A stretch of 43,817 nt of DNA from Bifiguratus adelaidae (Eukaryota; Mucoromycota; Endogonomycetes; Endogonales): positions 1 through 43,817 of the forward strand of contig MVBO01000126.1 of NCBI GenBank assembly GCA_002261195.1, written 5' to 3'. Below the pieces are notes generated by a model. The model saw nothing but the letters and a program-made list of their open reading frames with translations. It was not told where the DNA came from and made no database searches. Position 1 is the stretch's first letter. Every line of letters starts with the position of its first letter. Positions 10,504-12,334 of the stretch are shown here, one piece after another. A program made the translations under genes and the position numbers.

Positions 10504-12334
10504 CTATATTTGGACGAATTTGCCTCGCGTCAGGTTGACGCTAAGAGTTTTCCCGAGCAGCTTCTGAAGCTTTTCAACAAAGACATCAATCTCTTGCCGC
10601 TTTACTCCAATGGCTGCAGCAGCTGTCATATAGCTCGTGGGAGCATTTGCGAGTCGCGGGGTGTATTCATCAATGTGTGACATGAATCCGTTGAATGAAT
10701 AGCCAGATATCGTTTTGGTGGTATGGGGAGGCACGACGCGGGTGCCTGACACGGAGCGGGAAAACAACATAGATCCCAAAAAGGTGACAGATGTGGCGGA
10801 TGTGTCGGTGGGCAGATTCAAGGTCATGGCTAGGATTTGTGCGTTGAGAGAGGCATTAAGGCTGTTGGGTAAATTTTACCTAAGGAGACGTCATTGACGG
10901 GAGTTTCGAGCACTCGGCAGCCTAGATTGTGGGCTACTAGGCTGAGGCTATGGCAAAGATGCGCATAATTTTCACGTCGCTCTTGCAGCAATGCCAAAAA
11001 GCCATCAGCGCCAACCTCTAGAAGAGTGATAAACAGGTCCATAATGGGTGCAATGGACGCTCTTCCTAGGGTTCCCGAGTGAATGAAATGGCATGCTTGA
11101 GATATCTCGACATACCTGGGTACATTTGGGACAAGGCTGCGATGGGTTCGTTTTGAGGTCCAGCCACCACAGAACCGCCAACGGGGACAAGGAAATTCTT
11201 GTCCGTCGATTGGATATATAGATCGACTCGCCCTTGCCGACAAGCTTCATTCACTAGATTGACGCACTTTTGGGAGGCTAAGCCATAGGCGTTATTGATG
11301 ACATGGGGAATATCATGTTCCTGGCAGATCTTTGCCAATTCGATGATCCTAACAATGGTTTACTTTAAGAGGTTTCAGAGTCTCAACGCGTACCTATCTG
11401 GTACTCTTGGAGCAAAGCAGCTGGTTGTGGACATGATACACACAATGTTCTCAGGACCTAATTCATGTACCTTTCCTTGGACAGCTGCTAGATTGGTACG
11501 GACCATATCGCCTTCCATCACATTAGGTATCACCACAGGTACGTAACCTGTGGATACCGGTATGAGTTTGCAGGTTCAACATGTTGACTAGCGTTGCTAA
11601 CCTGCAGTAATGATGGACTTGAAGCAACTTTTTTGATCGATTCTCGGCCACAGGACGTATTTCGCACGGGGTCTTTGTGATCCCACTGTTCTCATGGACA
11701 AAGTCAGGGCCATTCCCGTTGCCATAGGTAGTATAACACACGCTGCTGCTGCTGCTTTTGTAAGACCTAATATTGCTCCTTGAGCCAAGGCAACGGTGAT
11801 AAAATGGCCAAAGACATCTACCGCAAATCCGCAATAGATCGAGCACCATATACTGGGTCAACTTGTAAAGTAAGCTGGATCCAGCCGCCTTGGGCTGAAC
11901 TTCCGAGATATCTCCACTTCTGCCAATGCCATGTCCAAAACTACACCGGCTTAGTTATCTGAGCCAACTCCAACTGTTCCGCTCACCCATAGTGTCGGCG
12001 CGCAACAATTCGACTCGCTATACGAGCCTCACGCTCTCCCAGACCCACATTGGCTATCACCTCTGTTTAGATTACGCGTTCGAAACATGTTCTCAAACCT
12101 TGACTCACACTGAAAGTTGTTGCTATCCATCTTGGCGATATGACCCAATACCCATTCAATGTCAGCCTCAGACCAAGGCGTCCTTGGAACGCGTCGTTGG
12201 GACAATAACGTCTGAAACTTTGCATGTCGCTGCTCTAGTGATTGTCTACCCTGTGATGCATATGTCTGTGAGCCAAGCAGTTCTCCTATGAGTCGTTCTT
12301 CCATAGGCGCTATTCCTTTTCCGTTGCACGTCAA
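10504..12334 (-). CDS. SEPSECS: O-phosphoseryl-tRNA(Sec) selenium transferase (SepSecS)
   Basis: SepSecS converts phosphoseryl-tRNA(Sec) to selenocysteinyl-tRNA(Sec) with selenophosphate, using PLP. Eight exons (12334-12109, 12053-11987, 11940-11822, 11766-11602, 11547-11394, 11348-11116, 11065-10880, 10829-10504) total 1476 nt, exactly 492 codons. Family blocks follow in order: [120 protein letters not shown] (with the PLP-binding Lys), QMYPGRASIAP, and [16 protein letters not shown] near the C-terminus. The length of 491 aa is close to human (501); the C-terminal tail is slightly shorter. No in-frame stop interrupts it. The start could instead be the Met at 12304. It is divergent from the RhoGAP gene across about 51 bp, and Rsp5 follows 77 bp downstream on the same strand. 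Confidence 0.96.

Follow-up and report, generated by a model that had tools for sequence, protein, structure and literature searches.

Machinery for the use of selenocysteine (Sec) has been described in nine early-branching fungi, among them Bifiguratus adelaidae and Gonapodya (Mariotti et al. 2019, Nat Microbiol, doi 10.1038/s41564-018-0354-9, as cited in the available text of PMC7988114), and the nine Sec-using fungal species are mentioned again in the accessible portions of PMC10778597 and PMC6627142. In the excerpts at hand, PMC11378755 lists three fungal groups with Sec, including Mucoromycota, and PMC10386755 and PMC12611240 cover Sec in Harpellales. The available text of PMC7988114 disputes the existence of fungal selenoproteins, pointing to the absence of the letter U from annotated proteomes. 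As far as these excerpts go, the Sec trait of early-branching fungi is known already, and for B. adelaidae it was very probably reported in 2019. The novelty implied by an initial annotation of the DNA studied here is thus not upheld, given that the same excerpts show published Sec use for early-branching fungi, Bifiguratus among them.

We analysed a gene for SepSecS in a 43.8-kb stretch of the B. adelaidae genome (hereafter the window, i.e. the whole stretch, contig C31), together with the rest of the assembly (18,628,366 bases, 18.6 Mb, in 286 contigs). What it has in common with the fungal cases of Mariotti et al. 2019 (Bifiguratus, Gonapodya, Harpellales), as these are summarized in the excerpts above, is the presence of Sec machinery in an early-branching fungus.

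The SepSecS gene of the window

The SepSecS gene occupies positions 12304-10504 on the minus strand of the window. Its eight exons, joined by hand, are separated by seven introns of 45-55 bp each, all of the GT-AG type, and the spliced frame has no internal stop. The features are as follows.

12305..12334, minus strand: ten in-frame codons from a TTG upstream of the SepSecS ATG, probably 5' UTR
12109..12304, minus strand: exon 1, starting with the first in-frame ATG (12304); homology from residue 5 onward
11987..12053, minus strand: exon 2 of the hand-joined gene model
11822..11940, minus strand: exon 3 of the gene model, carrying the conserved block at 105
11602..11766, minus strand: exon 4 of the hand-joined gene model
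11394..11547, minus strand: exon 5 of the hand-joined gene model
11116..11348, minus strand: exon 6 of the gene model, with the PLP-lysine block
10880..11065, minus strand: exon 7 of the hand-joined gene model
10504..10829, minus strand: exon 8 of the gene model, ending in a TAG stop

With the first in-frame ATG (12304) as start, the spliced coding sequence of 1446 nt encodes 481 amino acids plus the stop. The frame stays open upstream of this codon as far as 12412 without any ATG, which makes the ATG at 12304 the likelier start. The eight exons, the absence of a stop and the PLP-Lys motif given in the initial annotation all stand; its count of 492 codons needs the TTG at 12334 as start. When the entire assembly was searched with the PF05889 profile, four match rows came up, all of them on this gene; it is the single SepSecS of the B. 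adelaidae assembly and is intact by sequence. The window itself holds no tRNA according to ARAGORN and no RNA family at Rfam gathering scores, in line with the previous failure to see a tRNA-Sec within it.

The encoded protein matches TIGR03531 with 577.4 bits (E 1.6e-173; curated cut-off 224.85 bits) over positions 3-443 of the 444 in the profile, which puts chance out of the question as its source. Residues 5-465 align with the solved SepSecS of PDB 3hl2 (E 5.9e-159), which we take to be human SEPSECS. R75, S98, Q105, N252, K284, R313 and R398 of the solved chain, presumably residues important in the human enzyme that include the PLP lysine and positions contacting phosphate or tRNA, are all kept (7/7); the PLP-binding lysine of the fungal protein is K284, in the motif DKNF, and residues 173-174 are K and S in both chains. 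The two proteins thus share homology over residues 5-465, the PLP lysine and the other active-site residues examined. The fungal protein differs in carrying two inserts, one of 7 residues close to the C-terminus and one of 2 residues around residue 133, and in having a tail after residue 465 without an aligned counterpart in 3hl2. The predicted activity of the window protein is the conversion of O-phosphoseryl-tRNA(Sec) to selenocysteinyl-tRNA(Sec).

Host context and origin of the gene

Ten of the window's 26 open reading frames of at least 150 aa were run against Pfam, and six of the ten scored above the cut-off (Ndc1/Nup, RhoGAP, aldo-keto reductase, eIF3c, alpha/beta hydrolase and SCAMP). 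Among the best 120 matches listed, the window eIF3c is closest to that of Jimgerdemannia (name abbreviated '[Jimg'; 69% identity), the next being those of Umbelopsis, Rhizophagus and Podila. Bifiguratus is classified in the order Endogonales, to which Jimgerdemannia also belongs. With six Pfam families and a Mucoromycota-like eIF3c, the neighbours look fungal, which bears out the earlier argument that the flanking genes speak against contamination.

The SepSecS comparisons contain some features that would fit contamination or a recent transfer of the gene from an animal or another eukaryote. Animals make up most of the named rows among the best 120 SepSecS matches, the highest identity over the columns of the SepSecS tree is that to Branchiostoma (54%), and the tree has three long fungal branches, two of which may join falsely according to a warning of the tool. 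The best-scoring protein among the 120 matches listed is nevertheless that of a chytrid, Polychytrium (56%, BLASTP). In the tree of 28 rows (27 proteins hand-picked from the best 120 matches, with protists and Harpellales absent, and rooted at the midpoint), the window protein shares one side of a branch with two chytrids, Polychytrium and Hyaloraphidium, with support of 100/99; on the other side are 19 named animals and six unnamed rows. The tree, to which the initial annotation had looked for evidence on contamination, therefore leaves contamination unsupported. Contamination is also made less likely by the presence of the Mucoromycota-like eIF3c on SepSecS's own 43.8-kb contig and by the spread of the other Sec pathway genes over five further contigs. 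We consider it extremely unlikely that the gene is a contaminant or was recently acquired from an animal or from some other eukaryote; the fungal neighbours and the tree speak for the window SepSecS as a resident fungal gene.

Other components of the Sec pathway

A tRNA-Sec with the anticodon UCA is found at C23:39599-39685, where it scores 67.1 bits (gathering score 47 bits). The gene for SPS2 lies at C2:23593-25161 (+); its ten-exon model encodes 361 amino acids, scores 239 bits against the selD family (cut-off 125) and matches the solved selenide water dikinase 1 with E 6e-113. It contains one in-frame TGA, at residue 29, which is the catalytic position (context LKGUGCK). The SPS2 model requires a micro-exon of 8 nt, located in KVPQ, as well as an intron of the GC-AG type; homology is the basis for both.

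A PSTK-like kinase is represented by a 190-aa open piece on C146. Its best NCBIfam family is TIGR03575 (89.5 bits, E 2.4e-25), the full-length cut-off of which, 382 bits, is above the score of this half-gene piece, and its best match among solved structures is PSTK (E 6e-9). A downstream piece guessed to be the C-terminal exon was dropped, as it matched no PSTK model. The presence of a PSTK gene on C146, of which the N-terminal half has been read, is for this reason graded as probable only. The gene for eEFSec, on C249, was also read in part: it scores 64.1 bits against PF21208 (cut-off 27) over positions 77-120 of 120, and a 99-aa piece matches the solved eEFSec (E 4e-19) ahead of EF-Tu (E 2e-10).

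Together with the SBP2 described below, these matches in a single assembly agree with the earlier proposal that the whole Sec pathway is retained, the PSTK match being to the N-terminal half only. SepSecS, SPS2, SBP2 and tRNA-Sec are intact as judged from their sequences, and eEFSec and the PSTK-like kinase are present and read in part.

SBP2 and a predicted ankyrin fusion

The SBP2 gene, at C233:42447-44628 (+), has five exons encoding 659 amino acids. The first 306 of these match the solved SBP2 with E 8e-31, the sole solved-structure match at E<=0.1. The SBP2 chain in question, that of PDB 7zjw and presumably human SECISBP2, aligns in its RNA-binding/L7Ae part over residues 129-272, with a weak additional match (9.1 bits) to a KKPT block. 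The last exon (43271-44628) is free of stops from inside the L7Ae domain into a series of ankyrin repeats, and the C-terminal part matches Ank_2 (E 1.6e-26) and Ank (E 5.9e-21). The RNA-binding/L7Ae part is thus common to the fungal protein and SECISBP2, whereas the fungal open frame runs on into ankyrin repeats; to our knowledge, animal SBP2 has no such repeats.

Shallow searches of proteins and of the literature found no precedent for an SBP2-ankyrin fusion. In the protein search with the SBP2 RNA-binding part, two of the 337 candidates were SBP2-like at E<=0.001, both of them from fish and both with PF01248 alone. It is conceivable, if somewhat short of probable, that SBP2 has acquired a C-terminal ankyrin domain in this predicted 659-aa fusion, so that Sec insertion may be tethered or regulated via a protein partner, a mode that is not known in animals.

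Genes with an in-frame TGA

Six families were examined for a TGA at the catalytic position (selD, Rdx, GPx, AhpC, SelO and PMSR), and two genes carry one: SPS2 and a GPX4-like peroxidase. The latter, at C33:33345-32600 (-), has five exons encoding 183 amino acids. Its TGA is the first codon of the third exon and corresponds to residue 49, the catalytic codon (VASK-U-GLTP), and the homology extends to either side of it. If Cys is put in place of U, the protein matches GPX4 enzymes among solved structures at about 1e-49; its three best solved matches, led by one at 1e-55, are all designed variants. The two TGA-bearing genes lend substance to the earlier prediction that this genome would encode fungal selenoproteins.

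A paralogue of the peroxidase, at C228:30588-31208 (+), is a Cys form. In both copies an intron interrupts the gene at the catalytic codon, in almost identical position: that of the Sec copy ends just before the TGA, and that of the Cys copy splits the codon as TG|C. By sliding, an intron at the catalytic codon of GPx could provide a way from Sec to Cys or back.

Several candidates from the other families were rejected as selenoproteins. Rdx on C273 reads as a Cys form (CTGC), and so does SelO on C216, the end of which is LICSCSS (by eye, with one splice choice); several of the oxidoreductase families examined are therefore without Sec here. A TGA is present within one of the 12 AhpC match rows, on C185, where it is intronic and the catalytic residue is Cys. 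None of the three PMSR match rows holds a TGA.

Candidate SECIS elements

In the 3' UTR of SPS2, a core TGAC-N12-AAA starts 26 nt past the stop. The stem can be closed by a TGAC/TGAA quartet, with the AAA in apical position, followed by two small hairpins. The folding energy of the element is modestly better than that of shuffled sequences (z -1.7 and -2.0; 9 and 10 of 200 shuffles were equally good). In the 3' UTR of the C33 peroxidase, a similar core starts 77 nt past the stop, with a weaker stem. The core common to both, ATATGACGC-N10-AAA, occurs three times when 23 loci and the window are counted on both strands (396,650 nt in total), namely in the 3' UTRs of SPS2 and GPx and inside the PSTK open piece. 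The last of these looks like a chance occurrence, and because of it the ATATGACGC-N10-AAA motif alone is unspecific.

A purpose-written SECIS scanner, in its first geometry without a bulge, gave five hits in 14 sources (165,409 nt), none of them at SPS2. With one bulge allowed, the corrected scanner gave 28 candidates scoring at least 8 on both strands of the same 14 sources. The SPS2 element has the joint top score among these (11.5, tied with one other place), a result that is a description and not a blind test, since the geometry was corrected after the SPS2 element had been seen by eye. The GPx element falls below the threshold and is absent from the 28. At the genome-wide level, 133 of 332 candidates were scored with RF00031, and a single row was obtained at E<=10, C34:20027-20087 (-), with 20.7 bits. 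It was not retained as a SECIS, as its fold and the frames upstream showed no recognisable gene with a Sec-like TGA. The SPS2 element is probably a SECIS, and we propose the GPx element as a candidate SECIS.

Is UGA still read as selenocysteine?

The presence of SepSecS could also mean that the gene persists as a relic, or has been repurposed, in an organism where UGA is no longer decoded as Sec. Such a state would be consistent with the catalytic TGA being found in just two genes across the six families, with Cys in one of the two GPx genes, in Rdx, in SelO and in the sole TGA-bearing AhpC match, and with the result of Rfam cmscan, which reported no SECIS at the SPS2 or GPx locus at E<=5. Against it stand the dedicated components, including tRNA-Sec and SBP2, for neither of which we know of another well-established role, and SPS2 itself, which appears to need Sec. 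That SepSecS is a relic or has a new function is, on this evidence, highly improbable.

We are instead strongly inclined to see the window SepSecS as the single working copy in a complete eukaryotic Sec pathway that would insert Sec at UGA in SPS2 and in the GPX4-like peroxidase. If established biochemistry applies in this fungus, serine would be loaded onto tRNA-Sec and then phosphorylated there by PSTK. Selenophosphate would be made by SPS2, itself a selenoprotein, and SepSecS, with PLP on Lys284, would exchange the phosphate for selenium. SBP2, bound to the SECIS in the 3' UTR, and eEFSec would then bring Sec to the in-frame UGA of the SPS2 and peroxidase messages.

Both genes bear on the dispute over fungal selenoproteins. 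Gene prediction in which TGA counts as a stop would truncate GPx or SPS2 at that codon, which suggests why a test based on the letter U in annotated proteomes, as described in the available text of PMC7988114, fails.

The SBP2-ankyrin fusion, if true, would be an unusual architecture for a SECIS-reading protein. The raw sequence supports a Sec pathway, and two genes using Sec, in a fungus of the Mucoromycota.
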